A DNA stretch of 64,000 bases from Rubrivivax gelatinosus IL144 (GTDB lineage Bacteria; Pseudomonadota; Gammaproteobacteria; Burkholderiales; Burkholderiaceae_C): contig NC_017075.1 in assembly GCF_000284255.1 (NCBI RefSeq), positions 1,302,001-1,366,000 on the forward strand, written 5' to 3'. The translations under genes and the position numbers were made by a program. Each line of letters opens with the position of its first letter. Within the stretch, counting starts at the first letter, position 1. Shown here in pieces: positions 14,694-28,805 of this stretch. The notes beneath the pieces were generated by a model that saw only the letters and a list, made by a program, of their open reading frames with translations, was not told the origin of the DNA and made no database searches.

Positions 14694-14722
14694 ACGGCAC
14701 CGCAAGGTGCCGTTTGTCTTTT
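14694..14722 (+). terminator. Terminator after tRNA-Glu copy 2
   Basis: ACGGCACC and GGTGCCGT pair perfectly around GCAA, followed by TTGTCTTTT. It lies end-to-end with the 3' end of the convergent TetR gene and may serve both directions. Confidence 0.75.
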
Positions 14723-15384
14723 CAGGGCCGCGGCGACCACTTGCAAGCCTCGCCGGCCAGCAGCCGCAGCGCCTGCTCGATGCGCGGCCCCGGATCCCAC
14801 GCCGGCACCGGCGGCGTCAGGCCCAGGGCCATCTGCCTCAGCGGTTCGGCGATCACCATCGACAGCAGCAGGTCGCAGACGAGCTCCGGCTCCTCGACCT
14901 TCAGCAAGCCTTTGGCGCACTGGCGCCGCAGCCAGTCCGCCAGCATCGCGCGGCCGCGTTCGATGCCGTTGCGCTGGTAGACCTCCAGCAGGTCCGGCTT
15001 GGCCGGGAAGTCGGTGCTCAGCAGGCGGAACAGCCCGACCGCGTCGGCCGACAGCACACGCTCGGCCACCTGCCGCAGGATCGCCGCCAGCGCCGGCTGC
15101 AGCTCCGCGGCAGAGCGCACGTCGGCCGCCATCGCCGGGCGGAACGCATCGGTCCAGCTGCGCACGACCAGCGCCACCAGTTCCTCGCGGTTGGCCGCCA
15201 GGCGGTACAGCGTCTTCTTCGCCAGCCCGGCGCGTTTCGCCACGGCTTCCATCGTCGCCGCCGCATAACCCTCGTGCAGCAGCAGCCAGGTGGCGGCTTC
15301 GACCGCGGCCTCGTGGGCCTCGTGTTCGGGACGGGCAGGGCGCCCGCGTGGCCGGGCGGGTGCGGGCGTGAGGTCGGCGGGCAT
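14722..15384 (-). CDS. TetR/AcrR family repressor, divergent to the PhlG-like hydrolase gene
   Basis: About 220 residues from the ATG at 15384; an earlier in-frame ATG at 15423 would add 13 residues but lies inside the palindrome. After a Pro/Arg-rich N-terminus, the TetR helix-turn-helix is clear (AATWLLLHEGYAAATMEAVAKRAGLAKKTLYRLAANREELVALV). The C-terminal ligand domain is diverse, as usual. It is divergent to a PhlG-like hydrolase with a perfect 13-bp inverted repeat between them. That resembles the regulation of phlG by the TetR proteins PhlH and PhlF in pseudomonads, so it probably represses both genes until it binds a substrate-like ligand (inference). Confidence 0.88.
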   Translation of the reverse strand: MPADLTPAPARPRGRPARPEHEAHEAAVEAATWLLLHEGYAAATMEAVAKRAGLAKKTLYRLAANREELVALVVRSWTDAFRPAMAADVRSAAELQPALAAILRQVAERVLSADAVGLFRLLSTDFPAKPDLLEVYQRNGIERGRAMLADWLRRQCAKGLLKVEEPELVCDLLLSMVIAEPLRQMALGLTPPVPAWDPGPRIEQALRLLAGEACKWSPRP

Positions 15385-15420
15385 CGGGCTTCGGATCGTG
15401 GGCGGTGCACGATTATCCGT

Positions 15421-15451
15421 CATTAAAGAAACGTGTTGCGTTTCTTTAATG
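15421..15451. promoter_or_regulatory. Perfect 13-5-13 inverted repeat, likely TetR operator
   Basis: CATTAAAGAAACG and CGTTTCTTTAATG are exact reverse complements separated by TGTTG. It is the most AT-rich stretch in the area and lies between the divergent TetR and hydrolase genes, 40 bases before the hydrolase ATG, where an operator overlapping both promoters is expected. Confidence 0.8.
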
Positions 15452-15490
15452 TACGATGGCGCTTCCTCACCGACCGACAACGGACACGCC

Positions 15491-16186
15491 ATGAACGACC
15501 GCGCCTTCGAACCCGACATCTCTCACATCGACGACCTGCTGCAGATCACGCCGCTGCGGCTGGAGACCGGCATCTCCCGCCTGCCCAGCGGCTGCCTGGT
15601 GGTCGCCTGCCGCACCGACATGCACGGCTGCAGCGGCCGCATGCTGGACTGGTGGTTCAAGTTCTTCGAGACCACGCAGCACATCAAGTGTTGGCACCCG
15701 CACGACCACGTCTCCCACCACGGCTGGGACGCGCGCTGGAAGAAGGGCGAGAACTACATCGGCGCGTCCATCGAAGCCGTCGAGTCGCTCGCTGACATCC
15801 CGCCGGTAACGGCCAAGCTCAAGTTCCACGACCCGCGCGAGCTGTTCGACCCGGCGCAGCTGGAAAAGGCTTTTGCCGAGAAACGCGCCTCGGCCGCGGT
15901 CTATGCGCGAATCGGCTTCGGCGAGCATGTGCAGCTCGACGTCCACGGCGACCCGCTGGACGGCGAGATGGTGCACCTGGCGCGCGACACGCCTTTCGGC
16001 TGCGTGCTGCGCAGCCGTTTCCTGCTCGGTCGCTCCAGCGCCGACCCGGCGCGTGAACTGCCCGATGCGCTCGGCCTCGCGCTGCTGCGCCACTGCTACA
16101 CCGAGTTCAGCTACCTGTCGCGTTTCCTGCCGTCGCTGTACTACGGCGAACACGCCAACGGCGAAGCGGCGCCGCTGCCCTGGTAA
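15491..16186 (+). CDS. DAPG hydrolase (PhlG)-family protein, short form
   Basis: 231 residues against about 294 for PhlG. PhlG is a zinc enzyme that hydrolyses the carbon-carbon bond of 2,4-diacetylphloroglucinol, releasing acetate. Visible family marks: the aromatic motif DWWFKFFETTQHIKCWHPHD with several histidines (69-77), and a C-terminal HCYTEF where His201-x3-Glu205 matches the PhlG metal-binding HxxxE. The N-terminal part of PhlG is shortened. It is controlled together with the divergent TetR. The true substrate is unknown; an acylated phenol or 1,3-diketone is a reasonable guess. Confidence 0.75.
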   Translation: MNDRAFEPDISHIDDLLQITPLRLETGISRLPSGCLVVACRTDMHGCSGRMLDWWFKFFETTQHIKCWHPHDHVSHHGWDARWKKGENYIGASIEAVESLADIPPVTAKLKFHDPRELFDPAQLEKAFAEKRASAAVYARIGFGEHVQLDVHGDPLDGEMVHLARDTPFGCVLRSRFLLGRSSADPARELPDALGLALLRHCYTEFSYLSRFLPSLYYGEHANGEAAPLPW

Positions 16187-20368: not shown

Positions 20369-21202
20369 ATGACGGCCACGATCCGCGTGGGCATCGGCGG
20401 CTGGGTCTACGAACCCTGGCGCGAGACCTTCTACCCGCCCGGCCTGCCGGCCGCGCAGGCGCTGCCCTATGCCAGCGCCCGGCTCGACACGATCGAGGTC
20501 AACGGCACCTTCTATCGTTTGCAGCGGCCCTCGACCTTCGCCGCCTGGCGCGACGAGACGCCCGAGGGTTTCGTCTTCGCGCTGAAGGCCCCGCGTTTCG
20601 CCACCTACCGGCGGGCGCTGGCCGAGGCCGGTGAAGCGATCGAGCGCTTCGTCGCCAGCGGCATCGCCGAACTGGGCGCCAAGCTCGGCCCCGTGCTCTG
20701 GCAGTTCGCGCCGAGCAAACGCTTCGACGCCGCCGAGATCGAGGCCTTCGTGCGCCTGCTGCCGCGCGAAGCCGGTGGCCGGCCGCTGCGCCACGCGCTG
20801 GAGCCGCGCCACGACAGCTTCCGCTCGCCCGAGTACGTCGAGCTGGCGCGCCGGCTGGGTGTGGCGACGGTCTTCACCGACTCCGACCTGCACCCCTCGT
20901 TCGCCGACCCGACCGGCGACTTCGTCTACGCCCGGCTGATGCGCACGCAGTCGGACGAGCCGCTGGGCCTGTCGCCGCGCGTGTTCCCGGCGCTGGCCGC
21001 CTGCGCGCGCGACTGGCGCGACGGCGGCGAGCCCGAGGGCCTGCCGCGCGTGCTGCCGCCCCTGCCGCCCGGGCCGCCGCGCGACGTCTTCCTGTTCTTC
21101 ATCGCCGGCGCGAAGGAGCGTGCGCCGGCCGCGGCGATGACTTTGCGGCGCGTGCTGGCCGAAGCCGAGGGCGAGCAGCCGCCTTCGCCGCAGCTCGCCT
21201 GA
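20369..21202 (+). CDS. DUF72/YecE-family protein, first copy
   Basis: 277 residues. DUF72 is a TIM-barrel-like family of unknown activity. Signatures: the opening VGIGGWVYEPWRETFYPPGL, the IEVNGTFYRLQRPSTFAAW box, FALKAPRFATYRR, GPVLWQFAPSKRFD and ALEPRHDSF. AAAGGAG lies six bases before the ATG. A second, clearly homologous copy lies at 22610 on the other strand. Confidence 0.88.
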   Translation: MTATIRVGIGGWVYEPWRETFYPPGLPAAQALPYASARLDTIEVNGTFYRLQRPSTFAAWRDETPEGFVFALKAPRFATYRRALAEAGEAIERFVASGIAELGAKLGPVLWQFAPSKRFDAAEIEAFVRLLPREAGGRPLRHALEPRHDSFRSPEYVELARRLGVATVFTDSDLHPSFADPTGDFVYARLMRTQSDEPLGLSPRVFPALAACARDWRDGGEPEGLPRVLPPLPPGPPRDVFLFFIAGAKERAPAAAMTLRRVLAEAEGEQPPSPQLA

Positions 21203-22609: not shown

Positions 22610-23569
22610 TCAGGAGGCGCGGCGGCCGTGCCCCGGCGCTCGCGCGCGCACCGGCGGCGGCGAGGGCAGCGGCGGGCGTGGCCCGGTCAGCCCGGTCGGC
22701 ACGCTCAGCCGCTGCGCCAGCGCGGCGGCGTCGTAGGGCGCGTGCACCTTCACGTCGTTGTCGAAGTAGACGTAGACCTCGCGCGCCGCGGCGCGTGGCG
22801 CCGGCTCGGGCGATGCGCGGCGGGCGTCGTCAACCTCGCCGCCGCGGGCCCAGGCCTCGATGCGGCGCGCCCAGTCGTCGAGCGCGGCGTCGCCGTAGCC
22901 GCTGGCGTAGAGCTCGGCGTCGCCGTGCAGGCGCAGGTAGACGAAGTCGGCACACAGGTCTTCCAGCAGCGGCCAGCGGCCGGCTGTGTCGGCGACGACC
23001 AGCGCCACCCGGTGGCGGCGCAGCAGCGCGACGAACTCCGGCGTCGCGAAGCTGGCGTGGCGGATCTCGACCGCGTGGCGCAGCCGTCGCCGCGGCCCGG
23101 CGTCCAGCCAGGGCTCGGCGATGCGCGCATCGTGCCCGGCGGCCAGCGTGGCCGCGGCGGTGGTGTCCTGCGGCAGCAGCGCGAGGAAGTCGTCGAAGCG
23201 CGCGGCGTCGTAGCGCATCTGCGGCGGGAACTGCCACAGCAGCGGCCCCAGGCGCTCGCCCAGCGCCAGCAGCCCGGAGGCGAAGAAGTTGGCCAGCGGC
23301 ACGCGCACGTCCTTCAGCCGGCGCAGATGGGTGATGTAGCGCGGCCCCTTGATGGCGAAGACGAAGCCCTCGGGCGTCGCCGCGTGCCAGGCGCGGTACG
23401 AGGACGGCGTCTGCAGCGAGTAGAACGAGCCGTTCAGCTCGATCGTCGGCAGCTGGCGCGACGCGAACGCGAGCTCGTCGCGCTGCACGAGATCGGGCGG
23501 ATAGAAGACGCCGCGCCAGGGCGCGTAACGCCAGCCGGAGATGCCGATGCGGATCGTGCCGCGTGCCAT
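22610..23569 (-). CDS. DUF72/YecE-family protein, second copy
   Basis: 319 residues. It has the same signatures as the first copy (IGISGWRYAPWRGVFYPPDL, IELNGSFYSLQTPSSYRAW, FAIKGPRYITHLRR, GPLLWQFPPQMRYD, AVEIRHASF) plus the later FVYLRLHGDAELYASGYGDAALDDWARRI that the first copy lacks in this form. This is the more typical member of the family; the two copies are divergent paralogues rather than a recent duplication. Confidence 0.88.
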   Translation of the reverse strand: MARGTIRIGISGWRYAPWRGVFYPPDLVQRDELAFASRQLPTIELNGSFYSLQTPSSYRAWHAATPEGFVFAIKGPRYITHLRRLKDVRVPLANFFASGLLALGERLGPLLWQFPPQMRYDAARFDDFLALLPQDTTAAATLAAGHDARIAEPWLDAGPRRRLRHAVEIRHASFATPEFVALLRRHRVALVVADTAGRWPLLEDLCADFVYLRLHGDAELYASGYGDAALDDWARRIEAWARGGEVDDARRASPEPAPRAAAREVYVYFDNDVKVHAPYDAAALAQRLSVPTGLTGPRPPLPSPPPVRARAPGHGRRAS

Positions 23570-23901: not shown

Positions 23902-24588
23902 TCAAGCTGACGGGAGCCCGCCAGGACGCCGCTGCTCGGGGCAGTAGGCGGCGAGGATGGTGTCCACCGCGATCGCCACCTTGCGTGCGACCTCGGCCGG
24001 GCTGGGCCGGTCGGTCGGGTTCAGCAGCGAGTTGATGACCGGCAGGCCCAGACACAGCGAGCAGAAGCTGTCGGCGGCGATTTCGGCTCGCGTGGCGTCG
24101 AAACCCGGTTGCGACTCGAGGTAGCTCTTCAGCAGGAAGGTCGCGCGCAACGGCCCGGAGCGCAGCAGCTTCAGCGCGAGTTCGGGGAACTCGGCCGCTT
24201 CCTCGACCAGTATCCTGAACAGGGAGCCCATGCGCGGGTCGTACATCGTCGCGAACAAGGTGTGCCCGAAGGCCGTCATCACCTCGACCAGACCGGCGCC
24301 GCCCGCCAGCTGGCTGCTGAACACCTGCTCCACCTGTTCGATCTGGTGCTCGATGACCGCGCCGAACAGCTCGCCCTTGGTGGCGTAGCGCGCGTACAGC
24401 GTGCCTTTGGAGCCGCCGAGCTTGGCGATGATGTCGGAGATCTTGGTGTTGCGGTAGCCGTTCTCCAGGAACACCTCGGCCGCGATCTCCAGCAGCTCCG
24501 CCGACTTGTGTTCGGCCTCGGCGACGGTCGGCCGACCCGGGCGACGGGCTCGTCGTGGGCTGGCGTTCTGCGGCGGGGAGGGTTCCAT
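23902..24588 (-). CDS. TetR/AcrR family regulator of the porin/hydrolase locus (inferred)
   Basis: 228 residues from the ATG at 24588. The helix-turn-helix is textbook TetR (LLEIAAEVFLENGYRNTKISDIIAKLGGSKGTLYARYATKGELFGAVIEH). The C-terminal domain (PELALKLLRSGPLRATFLLKSYLESQ...INSLLNPTDRPSPAEV) is of the AcrR-type C-terminal kind. It lies just downstream of the porin gene on the same strand, so it is the most likely reader of the operators upstream of the porin and the EthD operon (inference). Confidence 0.85.
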   Translation of the reverse strand: MEPSPPQNASPRRARRPGRPTVAEAEHKSAELLEIAAEVFLENGYRNTKISDIIAKLGGSKGTLYARYATKGELFGAVIEHQIEQVEQVFSSQLAGGAGLVEVMTAFGHTLFATMYDPRMGSLFRILVEEAAEFPELALKLLRSGPLRATFLLKSYLESQPGFDATRAEIAADSFCSLCLGLPVINSLLNPTDRPSPAEVARKVAIAVDTILAAYCPEQRRPGGLPSA

Positions 24589-24846
24589 CTCGGTCTCGGC
24601 AAGTCCATGCGCGCTGTGACGCCGGCGTGCGACTTGGCGTCGCGCATGAACAACCTGACGGCGGAACCCGGCGCCGCGACGGCGCATGGGCGTCCGGGCC
24701 GGAGACGGAGCCTGTCATGGGCGATTTCGCCCTGGCTCCGGTCCGGCGGAATTGTATCGGCGCCTCGTGGCGGCCTTCCCGCGCCGCACTCCGGACCGCA
24801 CCCCGGACGATAGGCCCGGAGGTGGCGGCCAGGGCCGACGGCAGCG

Positions 24847-26184
24847 TCAGAAGTAGATCCGCGCGTCGACCGACAGCGTGGTCTGCTGCTGCTTGGTGTG
24901 GTCGCCGAAGGCCTTGAGGACGCCGCGATCGGTCTGCCAGTCGTAACGCAGTTCCGGTCTCAGCACGACGTTGGGCGTCAGCGAGTACGAGATGCCGGTG
25001 GTGACACCGTGGAAGCGGCCGCGGGCCATCGTGTTGGGGAAGGTCGCAACGCCCCGTGTGTCGTTGAAGACCTCGGCGCGAACGCCAGCGGTCATCTGCG
25101 GCGACAAGCGGTAGCGCATGCCGGCATTGACCCCGTAATAGGCCCCACCCTTGTAGTAAGGGCCGTCGAATATGTCGACGGTGTCGGCCTTGCCGTCGCC
25201 GTCCTGGCGGCCACGCAGGTATTCGACGTGCATGCCCAGCGCTTCGCTGGCGTTGTAGATCATCGTCAGCGAGTGGTGCTGGCGGTTCTGGTTGCGCGGC
25301 GAACTGACGCGGTGGAACGGCATCTGCGTCGGATAACCGGGCTCGGTCTGCTCGGCGCCTGTCATGAAGCCGTAGTCGACGCGCCAGCGCATTTCCGGGC
25401 TGCGCCAGCGCAGCGCGCCGATGACGCTCTTGTCGTTGTTGTTGTCCTGCCAGTTGGCGCGGCCGTTGACGATGCCGAGTTCAGCCGCCATCAGCCCCCG
25501 CTCGCCGCGCATCACGTTCGCCGAGGCTAGCGCGCCGACGGCCTCGATCGGCTGCGAGGCGAAGGCGTAGGTCCGGGAATAGAACTGGCTCGGGTCGTAG
25601 CCGCCGGTGGTCGGCAGCAGGTGGCCGATGCCGGTCATGAAGCGGCCGATCGTCAGCACCACGCCTTCGCCGTAGGGGGCGTAGATCTGGGCGTAAAGGT
25701 TGGCGAATCCGAGGTAATTCTGGCGCGACTTGCCGTTCGGATCGTCGCTCGGCGCGCGGTTGACGCCCCAGTCGGCATCGAATCCATTGACCAGGGTGTG
25801 GATGCCGTCACGGCCATAGACCATGTCCATGCGCATGCCCCAATCCCATTCGGTCGCGGTCGGGCCGGGGAGCGGGCCCATTCGTGACAGGAGATTGGCT
25901 TTCAGCCGCCTTTCCAGCGTCCACTGGACACGGTTGAATTGCAATCCTTCGTCTGCCGGACCGACCATCGGGCCAGTGCTGTTGGCGCCCGTGGCGGTGT
26001 CGTGACTGGTGTTGCTGTTGGTCGAGAAGCCCAGCCAGACAAAACCCGAGGAGGAAATGCCGGTGTGCGGCTCGGGGTTCTCGAACATGCGATACGGTTT
26101 GCTTCCGTCACCCTCCGCCTGGGCTGCCGTCGCGGCCACGGTCAATGTCACGCCGAAGACGGCGCGTCGAATACTGGCGTTCAT
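24847..26184 (-). CDS. Outer-membrane beta-barrel protein (porin-2/OmpL-like)
   Basis: 445 residues. The signal peptide (to about 24, ...AATAAQA) precedes a Tyr/Trp/Arg-rich sequence of alternating strands ending in a terminal Phe (SVDARIYF), the usual outer-membrane barrel ending. It probably forms a substrate channel. The ATG at 26184 (MNASIRR) is preferred because AGAGG lies nine bases upstream; an ATG two codons earlier is also in frame. It is the only barrel protein here, next to TetR and the hydrolase/EthD operon, with a complex 580-base upstream region. GC and codon bias are a little lower than in the neighbouring genes. Confidence 0.82.
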   Translation of the reverse strand: MNASIRRAVFGVTLTVAATAAQAEGDGSKPYRMFENPEPHTGISSSGFVWLGFSTNSNTSHDTATGANSTGPMVGPADEGLQFNRVQWTLERRLKANLLSRMGPLPGPTATEWDWGMRMDMVYGRDGIHTLVNGFDADWGVNRAPSDDPNGKSRQNYLGFANLYAQIYAPYGEGVVLTIGRFMTGIGHLLPTTGGYDPSQFYSRTYAFASQPIEAVGALASANVMRGERGLMAAELGIVNGRANWQDNNNDKSVIGALRWRSPEMRWRVDYGFMTGAEQTEPGYPTQMPFHRVSSPRNQNRQHHSLTMIYNASEALGMHVEYLRGRQDGDGKADTVDIFDGPYYKGGAYYGVNAGMRYRLSPQMTAGVRAEVFNDTRGVATFPNTMARGRFHGVTTGISYSLTPNVVLRPELRYDWQTDRGVLKAFGDHTKQQQTTLSVDARIYF

Positions 26185-26413
26185 GATCATCTACCTCTTG
26201 CTTCATGCTTCTTGATGCCGTCGTCGCCTTTCGATGCCCGTATCCGGGGCCGCGGGTTGGCGATCTTTCGGCTGTTTCGCTGTTCTCCTGCTGCGCCCGC
26301 CGGTGGTTCCCGGTGCGTCGTGGCGTGCAGGCTGACGGCTCTTTTCCCGCGGTTCCAGCCAGTTCCGGCGTTGCCGCCGAAAACCTGCTGGTCGATTTCA
26401 AGAATCTGTTGCT

Positions 26414-26452
26414 GACCTGGCGCCCGCGCCTTTTTAAAAGGTGGCGCAGGTC
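26414..26452. repeat. Imperfect inverted repeat in the porin leader
   Basis: GACCTG(G)CGCC and GGCGCAGGTC pair with one bulged base, enclosing a second AT-rich palindrome CCTTTTTAAAAGG. It could be a leader hairpin or a regulator site. Confidence 0.45.
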
Positions 26453-26519
26453 GCGAATGAAGCGCTGACGATCCACCGTCCGGCATCGTCGGAATTCCCC
26501 GCCGATGCCGTGTCGATGT

Positions 26520-26539
26520 ATCGTTCTGCGGAGTACGAT
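26520..26539. promoter_or_regulatory. ATCGT-N10-ACGAT inverted repeat, likely operator (porin side)
   Basis: ATCGT and ACGAT arms separated by TCTGCGGAGT. The same arms with the same 10-base spacing form the core of the longer palindrome upstream of the EthD gene (28544-28573). Confidence 0.55.
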
Positions 26540-26567
26540 AAAACGCGCGAAGCGCTCTATCGCGCGT

Positions 26568-26590
26568 CAAATGTCAGGCGTTGACATTTG
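26568..26590. promoter_or_regulatory. Perfect 9-5-9 palindrome
   Basis: CAAATGTCA and TGACATTTG are exact reverse complements around GGCGT. About 380 bases upstream of the porin start; likely a dimeric regulator site, regulator unknown. Confidence 0.55.
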
Positions 26591-26653
26591 GAATTTGCGC
26601 CGCCGCAAGGGGCGTGACGGCGAGTGGTGCTAACCGCAGCTTGGCGCGGGATG

Positions 26654-26690
26654 AAAAAAGGCTGCGCAACGCAGCAGCGTTGCACAGCCT
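26654..26690 (-). terminator. Rho-independent terminator of the EthD/hydrolase operon
   Basis: On the minus strand AGGCTG-GCAACG and CGTTGC-CAGCCT form a 12-bp stem with one A/C mismatch and a six-base loop, followed by six T. It lies about 75 bases after the hydrolase stop, separating that operon from the porin gene. Confidence 0.85.
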
Positions 26691-26765
26691 GTGAATTGCC
26701 CTAGAGGGGCGCTTGACGATCTGTTCAAATCTCCGGCAGAAGTTGCCGGAATATCGCGAGAAGGC

Positions 26766-27668
26766 TCAGGCGAGCATATTTCCGCCGAGTTCCTTGTAGA
26801 TTCTCGGGAGGAACTGCGCGTAGCGCGTGAACTCGCTCACGTTGTGCCGTGCGAGGCCTTGCACGCTTTCCGCCGGGACGCGCACGCCGGGCGGCAGCGT
26901 CAGCTCGGGACGTTTGCCGACGAGGCGATAGCCCATCCAGAACCGGGTGCGGTGCTCCAGCCCCTGGGGCGTCTCGCGGAAGATGTGGCACATCATCGCC
27001 GGCGCCGTGACGCTGTCGTCGGTCTTGTTCACCGACACCGCCCAGCCCTGGCCGCAGGCCACCGTGGCGACGGCCGGGCGCTTCCAGCGCGCCATGTCGA
27101 AGCCGAAGTCCTCGGGCGACTTGAAGTGGATGTCCACGTTGTCCATGCCGCAGTTGCAGTTCTCGGTGACGTGGTGCGTGACGCCCCAGTTGCGCTGCGA
27201 CATCGGGATCGACTCGTCGAGCAGGCGCTTGCGGTTCTCGGGGCTGACCATGATCCCGGCGTGCTGCGGCGGGTACCAGATGCGGTAGCGCAGATCCTCC
27301 AGCGGGTGCCAGGCGAACCACCAGTCGATCATGTCGGCGGTGACGTCCGGGTACACCGACTTGTTGGCGATGAAGCCGGCGCCGTTGCGCAGGATGCACC
27401 AGCCGGCCTCGACCTCGAGGTAGCCCGGGTCGAGCAGGCGGTTCATGTCCTCGGGGAGCAGCGCCTTGTCGGGGTCGCAGGGCTGGTCCATCACCGCCAT
27501 GGCCTTGGGGTCGGGCTGCGGGATCTCGTCGAAGAGATATTTCGCGAAGGGCCGCGCGCGTTCTTCCTCGGTCAGTTCGAGGAGCGAGGCCTTGACCTTG
27601 GTGTGGGCGAGATACTCCGTGTAGGTCTGCTGCACGGCGAGCTCGCGCAGAGTTTCGCTGGTTGCCAT
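26766..27668 (-). CDS. DAPG hydrolase (PhlG)-family protein, full-length form
   Basis: 300 residues, close to PhlG (about 294). PhlG hydrolyses the aryl-acyl carbon-carbon bond of diacetylphloroglucinol with a zinc ion held by two His and two Glu. Here the conserved WWFAWHPLEDLRYRIWYPPQH segment spans 116-136 (candidate ligand His136), HHVTEN gives candidate Glu169, and RHNVSEF gives His275-x3-Glu279; spacing and order match the PhlG metal site. It is the second gene of an operon with the EthD protein, 25 bases after it. The real substrate may differ from DAPG; a hydrolytic carbon-carbon cleavage of an acylated phenol is inferred. Confidence 0.82.
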   Translation of the reverse strand: MATSETLRELAVQQTYTEYLAHTKVKASLLELTEEERARPFAKYLFDEIPQPDPKAMAVMDQPCDPDKALLPEDMNRLLDPGYLEVEAGWCILRNGAGFIANKSVYPDVTADMIDWWFAWHPLEDLRYRIWYPPQHAGIMVSPENRKRLLDESIPMSQRNWGVTHHVTENCNCGMDNVDIHFKSPEDFGFDMARWKRPAVATVACGQGWAVSVNKTDDSVTAPAMMCHIFRETPQGLEHRTRFWMGYRLVGKRPELTLPPGVRVPAESVQGLARHNVSEFTRYAQFLPRIYKELGGNMLA

Positions 27669-27693
27669 TTCTTGATACTCCGTTGAGTGGCCC

Positions 27694-28485
27694 TCAGGCC
27701 GCCGGGCGATAACCGTCGGTGTCGCGAATGATGACGATCTGCTTGGTCATCAGGAAGAACGACTTCGACCAGTTGACGAACTTGCGCGAGGACTTCTGCA
27801 GTGCCTCGTGGTATTCGCGGAAGGCGCCTGCCTGTTCCATCGTGTCGTACCAGTGGCAAGACACCAGGTTGTAGACCGGCGGGTTCACCTGCTTGAAGTG
27901 CTTGCGCGCCGCGGCGTCGTTGTCGTTCAGGCGCAAACGCCAGTTGGCCTGGCAGCGGCGGAGCTGGCTCTTGGCATACGGAGCCTTTTCCAGCGCTTCG
28001 TCGTGGGCTTCGCGCCAGTACTTCTGGAAGTCTTCCGGATAGATGCTGTCGTCACGCATGACGAAATGCATGACCTTCATCCCGCCCTGGTTCTTGAGTC
28101 CCGCCAGGCCGGGGTTGAACGACGGCACCGGACAGGCCACCGGAATTTCTTCCTCTTCGGCCATGACGGTGATGCTGTTGCATTCGTCGGCGAAGAACTG
28201 GCCGTCCGGGCCCACCGGCGTCGGCTCTTTCGGTTCGAGCGCGTTGATCATGTCCGGGAAGGTGTCGAACATCAGTTCGACGACCGCGTCGCGATCCGCG
28301 ATCTGCTGGTGCGTCGAATCCTGCAGCGTCCCGAACGCGCTGTCGATGACGTGGTTCTGGATATAGGCGCGGAGCGACGAGCGATGTTCCCGTGCGAGCG
28401 TGCCGTGATAGAACTCGATATAGCGTTGGTAATCCGCTCGCGTCAGGCCGGGCCGTCTACGCGAGGCGGCGAGTAGTTTCAGCAT
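27694..28485 (-). CDS. EthD-domain protein
   Basis: 263 residues, first gene of the operon. It appears to hold two ferredoxin-like EthD halves. The first starts MLKLLAASRRRPGLTRADYQRYIEFYHGTLAREH; the second has MKVMHFVMRDDSIYPEDFQKYWREAHDEALEK, and both carry the F/Y..YW/Y...H pattern of EthD proteins. EthD proteins accompany ether and aromatic degradation enzymes, and fungal relatives act on polyketides. GAGGTG lies about eight bases before the ATG. A binding, cyclising or cleaving role on the same compound as the PhlG-like partner is inferred. Confidence 0.8.
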   Translation of the reverse strand: MLKLLAASRRRPGLTRADYQRYIEFYHGTLAREHRSSLRAYIQNHVIDSAFGTLQDSTHQQIADRDAVVELMFDTFPDMINALEPKEPTPVGPDGQFFADECNSITVMAEEEEIPVACPVPSFNPGLAGLKNQGGMKVMHFVMRDDSIYPEDFQKYWREAHDEALEKAPYAKSQLRRCQANWRLRLNDNDAAARKHFKQVNPPVYNLVSCHWYDTMEQAGAFREYHEALQKSSRKFVNWSKSFFLMTKQIVIIRDTDGYRPAA

Positions 28486-28805
28486 GTCATTTCACCTCAT
28501 GAATGAAGGCCGAGCTTTTGGGGTTGTCAGCTAAGCCCGTTTTGACCAATCGTACCCGCAGGAACGATTGGTCGGGCCATCGTATGCCTGTTGCATCACG
28601 GGGTCAACACGCTTTCGCAAGTCCGAGTTGCTCCCACGCGAAGGCGCGTTGCGTCGCGTGATGCGCCGCAGCGCTTGACGAGTGCGTGGGAGAGGCGTGC
28701 CCGGGGCGGCACGGCGCCCGACGGGGCGCCCGAATGCGCGGCGCAGCGCGCAGCGTCCGGCGCCTGGGCCGTAGGCCGCGTGCAAGAGCCGCTATGGGCT
28801 CGCGC
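28486..28805. promoter_or_regulatory. Non-coding region upstream of the EthD operon
   Basis: It contains the 10-10-10 palindrome at 28544-28573 and the leader of the EthD gene. The part nearer the sirtuin gene (28580-28800) is GC-rich and shows no gene or structure that I can support. Confidence 0.5.
28544..28573. promoter_or_regulatory. Perfect 10-10-10 palindrome, likely operator of the EthD operon
   Basis: GACCAATCGT and ACGATTGGTC are exact reverse complements separated by ACCCGCAGGA, about 60 bases before the EthD start. The inner ATCGT-N10-ACGAT recurs upstream of the porin. A TetR-type dimer site is likely. Confidence 0.7.

Follow-up and report, generated by a model that had tools for sequence, protein, structure and literature searches.

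What compound is handled by a small gene cluster of the photosynthetic bacterium Rubrivivax gelatinosus IL144 in which a carbon-carbon (C–C) hydrolase shares an operon with an EthD protein, beside genes for an outer-membrane porin and a TetR-family regulator, and what does the EthD protein contribute? The four genes are located in the R. gelatinosus chromosome, within the 64,000-nucleotide stretch analyzed here (NC_017075.1, bases 1,302,001 to 1,366,000; hereafter the window). Our answer, which we regard as probable, with confidence somewhat above even, is that they form a TetR-controlled catabolic module that takes up a plant polyphenol, namely, a flavonoid or chalcone-type acylphloroglucinol, and splits it at a C–C bond, as judged from gene content and neighborhoods. 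The module is a variant of known PF18089 hydrolase systems, and its new part is the EthD partner. A sequence-only reading had placed TetR, barrel, hydrolase, and EthD genes together on one strand, and all four were found there, on the minus strand, with Pfam agreeing for each:

27694-28485, minus strand: EthD protein of 263 residues with two EthD domains, encoded at the head of the operon (PF07110, 6.2e-17, in two stretches).
26766-27668, minus strand: PF18089 C–C hydrolase of PhlG/phloretin-hydrolase type, 300 residues (Pfam DAPG_hydrolase PF18089, 2.4e-80).
24847-26190, minus strand: BBP2 outer-membrane porin, 447 residues (PF07642, 6.1e-43).
23902-24687, minus strand: TetR-family regulator with an AefR-like C-terminal domain, start uncertain (PF00440, TetR_N, and PF14246, TetR_C_7).

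The hydrolase scored 269.7 bits with PF18089 (curated cut-off, 22.7) and matched solved structures of phloretin hydrolase (5xe5, 8.5e-38) and PhlG (3hwp, 3.1e-33). Its likeness to PhlG had been proposed along with four likely metal ligands, and these are retained: His136, Glu169, His275, and Glu279 align with H137, E168, H278, and E282 of 3hwp (numbers counted along the alignment), residues that we take to be the zinc ligands of PhlG, and the same four positions align with His/Glu of 5xe5. Across 26 aligned relatives H136 and E169 were invariant, while H275 and E279 were each present in 25. The enzyme scored only 123.8 bits against the 600-bit equivalog cut-off of NCBIfam NF047887 (PhlG), so the likeness does not extend to a PhlG specific for 2,4-diacetylphloroglucinol (DAPG). 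It thus shares family and aligned metal ligands with phloretin hydrolase (Mycobacterium abscessus 5xe5/5xey; Phy of Eubacterium ramulus) and with PhlG (3hwp), but falls far under the PhlG-specific cut-off and belongs to a distinct clade with an EthD partner. Its most likely reaction is the hydrolysis of an aryl ketone of the phloroglucinol type.

The distribution of the EthD gene was examined in 79 fetched loci (numbered L), the best of 135 relatives, from named genomes. The relatives were found by two peptide patterns, so the sample favors window-like enzymes, and many of the loci are metagenome bins and may carry wrong names. In 19 of the 79 loci, as in the window, the EthD gene immediately preceded the hydrolase gene on the same strand; in L033, which is irregular, the two open reading frames (ORFs) overlap and the pair was labeled by hand. 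Record titles of the pair loci include Oleisolibacter, Kosakonia, Castellaniella, Rhodobacteraceae, Holophagaceae, Planctomycetaceae, Syntrophorhabdaceae, Thermoleophilia, other Actinobacteria, Acidobacteria, and Bryobacterales. The pair therefore recurs in several bacterial phyla. The full four-gene set, for which a search of other genomes had been proposed, was seen among the loci examined only in R. gelatinosus (the window and the near-identical loci of strains DSM 1709, L010, and IM 151, L011, with hydrolases 100% and 99% identical). In Kosakonia L014 the pair is accompanied by a TetR of 36% identity and by an outer-membrane barrel from a different Pfam family, PF13557 (assigned by homology to that of L012). 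The conserved unit is the EthD-hydrolase pair rather than its four-gene form.

A tree of 87 hydrolases placed all 20 EthD-linked enzymes in one set of 28 (Shimodaira-Hasegawa-like approximate likelihood ratio test support of 90, or 99 for 27 rows without L037), and none of the other 59 had EthD within 350 bp. The tree was built by a quick method, has several long branches, and omits short or duplicate loci (L001 to L008, L094, L095) and matches weaker than 1e-30. Within the set, eight members have no EthD, of which L020, L028, and L038 start at or near a contig end; the EthD label requires several changes there, indicating that EthD was lost or exchanged more than once. Distances among EthD proteins and among hydrolases correlated closely (r = 0.92, 18 pairs, leaving out L010 and L011), a value that was not reached in 5,000 permutations. 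ORFs of 315 and 254 residues upstream of EthD in L017 and L019 look like antisense ORFs, and the one of them that was scanned had no Pfam match. In the open-licence literature we found no paper joining DAPG hydrolase with EthD, or EthD with flavonoid and phloroglucinol, and no EthD domain appeared among the matches listed for related topics.

Genes around the pair point to its substrate. Markers were assigned by phmmer with single queries, the BKACE, short-chain dehydrogenase/reductase (SDR), and OYE families being broad, and the counts are lower bounds because of contig ends. Within the fetched flanks, a marker of the chalcone isomerase, flavone reductase, cyclase, or strong SDR/dehydrogenase kind was present at eight of the 19 pair loci (L014, L017, L019, L021, L023, L027, L033, L037). 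Chalcone isomerase homologues were present in six, namely, L017, L021, L033, and L037 (by Pfam or solved structures, the Pfam score of L037 being just below the cut-off) and L019 and L023 (by homology to that of L037). In L021, L023, and L033 the EthD-hydrolase pair is followed by a chalcone isomerase and then a second hydrolase, whereas L037 has, in a row, chalcone isomerase, flavone-reductase homologue (7d38, 5.9e-44), EthD, and hydrolase. In L027 the pair is followed by a PF04199 cyclase, an SDR, and a 3-hydroxyacyl-CoA-dehydrogenase-type gene; L014 and L017 hold homologues of this cyclase and dehydrogenase-type gene and of BKACE, but not of the SDR, and an SDR lies beside the pair in L019. 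A SnoaL-like gene, which could be a third component, occurs near the pair in four of the 19 loci (L013, L015, L027, where it is PF13577, and L030).

The R. gelatinosus chromosome itself holds a cluster at about 0.134 to 0.161 Mb with a PGR-like SDR, a PF04199 cyclase, BKACE, phosphate acetyltransferase, acetate kinase, thiolase, 3-hydroxyacyl-CoA dehydrogenase, and CoA-transferase-like genes (the last named from sequence and unscanned). It is of the kind of the phloroglucinol degradation cluster (PGR, DPGC, TfD, TAL), of which R. gelatinosus is named as a carrier, among bacteria reported to degrade phloroglucinol (excerpt of PMC10470551). This cluster also contains a second PF18089 hydrolase, 40% identical to that of the module, and a BBP2 porin that shares 53% identity with the window's over 415 residues; these are paralogues of the module's enzyme and porin, but the module lies about 1.2 Mb away and adds EthD. 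In the genome of strain IL144 no chalcone isomerase was found, in searches neither of which had a working positive control. Taken together, these contexts point to flavonoid or chalcone-type acylphloroglucinols that would feed the phloroglucinol pathway. The proposal of uptake and cleavage of an acylated phenol was thus broadly right, and the neighboring genes narrow it from acylphenols in general to this type, from which we infer the substrate.

In the module as we picture it, the porin would pass the compound across the outer membrane, and EthD would make a non-redox acid-base change, most likely C-ring opening or tautomerisation, in the manner of bacterial chalcone isomerase. The PF18089 enzyme would then break the aryl–C(=O) bond by hydrolysis. 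Of the two products, phloroglucinol and a phenylpropanoid-type acid, the former would enter the pathway encoded at about 0.13 to 0.16 Mb on the same chromosome.

The role proposed for EthD in this scheme follows that of bacterial chalcone isomerase. The protein scored 63 bits with PF07110 (cut-off, 22). An alignment of 31 EthD sequences contained 80 invariant columns, with His in both domains, and an invariant Y22-x4-H27 whose spacing equals that of W28-x4-H33 of chalcone isomerase (numbers counted along the alignment). Bacterial chalcone isomerase has two ferredoxin-like domains and a catalytic His33 (PMC9694015, in part). The enzyme of E. ramulus (3zph, 4d06) resembles the window's EthD in length, in the like spacing of a His, and, by analogy, in two ferredoxin-like domains, but EthD has neither PF18232 nor a profile match to it. 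In the chalcone isomerase homologue of L033, one of six proteins scanned, the second half matched EthD just short of the cut-off (20.9 versus 22 bits). Bacterial chalcone isomerase is the closest functional parallel for EthD. Comparison of EthD with solved structures by sequence and profile gave no credible match. Two other parallels were considered and set aside: nothing in this analysis favored a fungal-type decarboxylase of the kind described in the excerpt of PMC4591646, and AurZ is a dehydratase (PMC3654996, in part) whose membership in the EthD family that text does not state and which was given no weight.

Several results weigh against the proposed scheme. EthD gave no PF18232 match at E values up to 10, and hhalign assigned a probability of about 1% to its relation with chalcone isomerase, a negative that says little, because the control comparison of EthD domains 1 and 2 likewise gave 0.87%; we therefore do not class EthD as a chalcone isomerase, the profile comparison being a weak test. 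The invariance of EthD partly reflects closeness, the 31 relatives being at least 61% identical. Six pair loci already hold a chalcone isomerase, so that EthD would be superfluous in these or would have another substrate or other isomers to act on. No chalcone isomerase, flavone reductase, cyclase, or SDR marker was present within the fetched flanks of 11 of the 19 pair loci. Finally, the genomes of L024, L025, L029, L031, and L032, whose hydrolases belong to the same clade, gave no EthD match of such type. In the genome of strain IL144 no chalcone isomerase was found, in searches neither of which had a working positive control.

The partners of PF18089 hydrolases outside the EthD pairs bear on what EthD may do. 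An FAD_binding_2/Succ_DH_flav_C-type flavoprotein was adjacent or fused in 34 of the 87 hydrolase rows and an OYE-type reductase adjacent in three, with both kinds in one row; 29 rows had no EthD, flavoprotein, or OYE within 350 bp. ORFs longer than 600 residues were labeled flavoprotein fusions by length, three of six being confirmed by Pfam, and a flavoprotein 639 bp away in L024 was counted as no partner. These six single ORFs, of about 815 residues (L060, L062, L063, L064, L067, L074), appear to be fusions of a flavin adenine dinucleotide (FAD) flavoprotein and a PF18089 hydrolase. Within the EthD clade a flavoprotein is adjacent in L028, L029, L032, and L038, and of the hydrolases in L030 one is paired with EthD and another with the flavoprotein. 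Given the reductase neighbors in other PF18089 lineages, EthD seems to hold a place often taken by reductases, and it may therefore supply a non-redox step. The FLR–Fcr–Phy operon of Clostridium butyricum (excerpt of PMC11868195) and the related loci L046 and L055 likewise join a PF18089 hydrolase with flavonoid enzymes, but these systems use reductases, and the genomes of L046 and L055 gave no EthD match. A protein of about 206 residues without a Pfam match adjoins chalcone isomerase in L017 (4335-4955) and L019 (11093-11716); it is related to the C-terminal part of flavoproteins in L024 (6996-9362) and L029 (4172-6547), where there is a weak PF18089 match.

In a bolder version of the scheme, EthD would be a new chalcone-isomerase-like enzyme and its partner clade of hydrolases would split the unreduced chalcone into phloroglucinol and a hydroxycinnamate such as p-coumarate. 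We advance it tentatively, as a possibility that we would not bet on. Phenolic acid decarboxylases act on hydroxycinnamates, and a gene for one directly follows the hydrolase in two pair loci (L012, at 22 nucleotides, and L034, overlapping), while another lies at 4.287 Mb in the IL144 genome. The frequent adjacency or fusion of hydrolases outside the EthD clade to an FAD flavoprotein, or their adjacency to an OYE-type reductase, is consistent with the same idea. The excerpted text of PMC11943482 mentions p-coumaric acid that others obtained from naringin with cultures of rat gut, but the study's own cultures did not show this acid. Further points against it are that the decarboxylase is limited to two of the 19 pair loci, that chalcone isomerase is present in six, and that the pair has reductase-type genes no more than 9 kb away in L016, L026, and L027, which also argues against a strict exchange of partners, with such genes lying close to the other hydrolase of L030 as well. 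In its most general form, to which we attach the same limited credence, the pair would be a widespread redox-free polyphenol-cleaving system, with EthD as a second bacterial class of chalcone isomerase/hydratase and its partner hydrolases cleaving chalcones directly to phloroglucinol and hydroxycinnamates, in contrast to other lineages, in which flavin reductases accompany the hydrolase.

A more conservative alternative, which we consider improbable, is that EthD is accessory or redundant, with the hydrolase working by itself on dihydrochalcones as an ordinary phloretin hydrolase. The five genomes with a same-clade hydrolase and no EthD of such type argue for it. The 80 invariant columns with His in both EthD domains look catalytic, although the sequences are close, and in three of the five genomes (L024, L029, L032) an FAD flavoprotein is found close to the hydrolase instead; both points argue the other way. 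Less probable still is that EthD hydrates the chalcone or catalyzes a retro-aldol reaction, giving an aromatic aldehyde and trihydroxyacetophenone (monoacetylphloroglucinol), from which the hydrolase would remove the acetyl group in a reaction near that of PhlG. Kinship with PhlG would fit, as would aldehyde ferredoxin oxidoreductase genes near two actinobacterial pair loci (L021, 13791-15626; L033, 12528-14483), but L024, without EthD, has the same oxidoreductase cluster, and EthD shows no aldolase-like evidence. PhlF is a TetR-type regulator. In Pseudomonas, phlG adjoins the phlF regulator gene (PMC7062750, in part). Detoxification of antibiotics such as 2,4-diacetylphloroglucinol, with TetR sensing the compound and the neighboring hydrolase inactivating it, matches that adjacency but is similarly doubtful given the low PhlG score, a porin rather than an efflux pump in the four-gene unit, and catabolic neighbors in other genomes.

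For the catabolic module that we favor, local control had been proposed, and paired operator-like sites do link the porin to the operon. The control elements are as follows:

28579-28607, minus strand: promoter-like site TTGACC-17-TACGAT before the EthD gene (consensus scan alone).
28544-28573, no strand: operator-like perfect inverted repeat with 10-nucleotide arms before the EthD gene (repeat search).
26659-26690, minus strand: terminator-like hairpin after the hydrolase gene (14 pairs, 9 of them G-C, then a T run).
26520-26539, no strand: second operator-like site, upstream of the porin gene and separated from its start codon by 330 bp (core-form search).

The inverted repeat sits just downstream of the promoter-like site, and its outer edge, 28573, is where the sequence-only reading had ended the system. 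The core of the repeat, ATCGTACCCGCAGGAACGAT, is similar to ATCGTACTCCGCAGAACGAT, which lies ahead of the porin at 26520-26539. Genome-wide there are 17 ATCGT-N10-ACGAT sites, and the form ATCGTAC-N7-AACGAT occurs only at the EthD and porin sites; allowing up to two mismatches, the window gave four matches (two places, both strands) against 0.3 in shuffles. Both sites are kept in L010 and L011, and among the fetched loci the exact core pattern is confined to R. gelatinosus, plus one occurrence in L082. Near EthD elsewhere, Kosakonia L014 has inverted repeats of other sequence, and Oleisolibacter L012 has none. These sites suggest that the local TetR, which would bind them, controls both the operon and the porin; the TetR gene has no such site in front of it, and the 330-bp distance at the porin would imply a long leader.

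The promoter scan found one site against a mean of 0.8 in shuffles, and the terminator scan of the region found six against 3.9. The EthD and hydrolase genes are 25 nucleotides apart on the minus strand and form a two-gene operon; given the hairpin after the hydrolase gene, the porin and TetR genes look like separate units. The porin scored 147.8 bits with PF07642 (cut-off, 26.2) and the regulator 41.0 bits with PF00440 (cut-off, 24) and 65.7 with PF14246 (cut-off, 22); the start of the regulator is uncertain because the helix-turn-helix begins only at residue 65 of the longest ORF.

Across 59 same-genus genomes (73 to 100% complete), the hydrolase had a close copy in G024, at coordinates that agree with those of L010, and two weak matches in G048, with no match in the other 57 at E 0.001, and a class-wide search of 369 genomes gave one weak match beyond its own genome. 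G+C content falls to 0.67 at 24 to 26 kb and 0.63 at 26 to 28 kb, compared with 0.70 to 0.75 over most of the window, with a further dip at 14 to 16 kb. This distribution and the G+C dip suggest that the module was acquired horizontally. Plasmid records contained PF18089 relatives (about 25 to 29% identity) in 19 cases and distant EthD matches (23 to 24%) in two, none in both. Two DUF72 genes lie beside the module on opposite strands, about 1.4 kb apart (20369-21202, plus strand; 22610-23569, minus strand). A third PF18089 hydrolase, encoded in the window at 15290-16186 (plus strand; 3.6e-48), is 26% identical to that of the module and is absent from the tree because its match was weaker than 1e-30. 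Its gene overlaps a divergent TetR ORF (14722-15519, minus strand) of the same TetR_C_7 type as the module's and lies near a tRNA-Ala/Glu/Glu run within the second G+C dip. G024, a match to R. gelatinosus DSM 1709, encodes one more PF18089 hydrolase (L091, 5260-6072), 46% identical, that did not appear among the matches from the genome of the window.

Flavonoid breakdown by bacteria outside the gut matters for the release of carbon from soils and peat. The EthD-hydrolase pair offers a defined place to seek a missing step and a bacterial role of the poorly understood EthD family, and the paired operator-like sites are a candidate polyphenol sensor.

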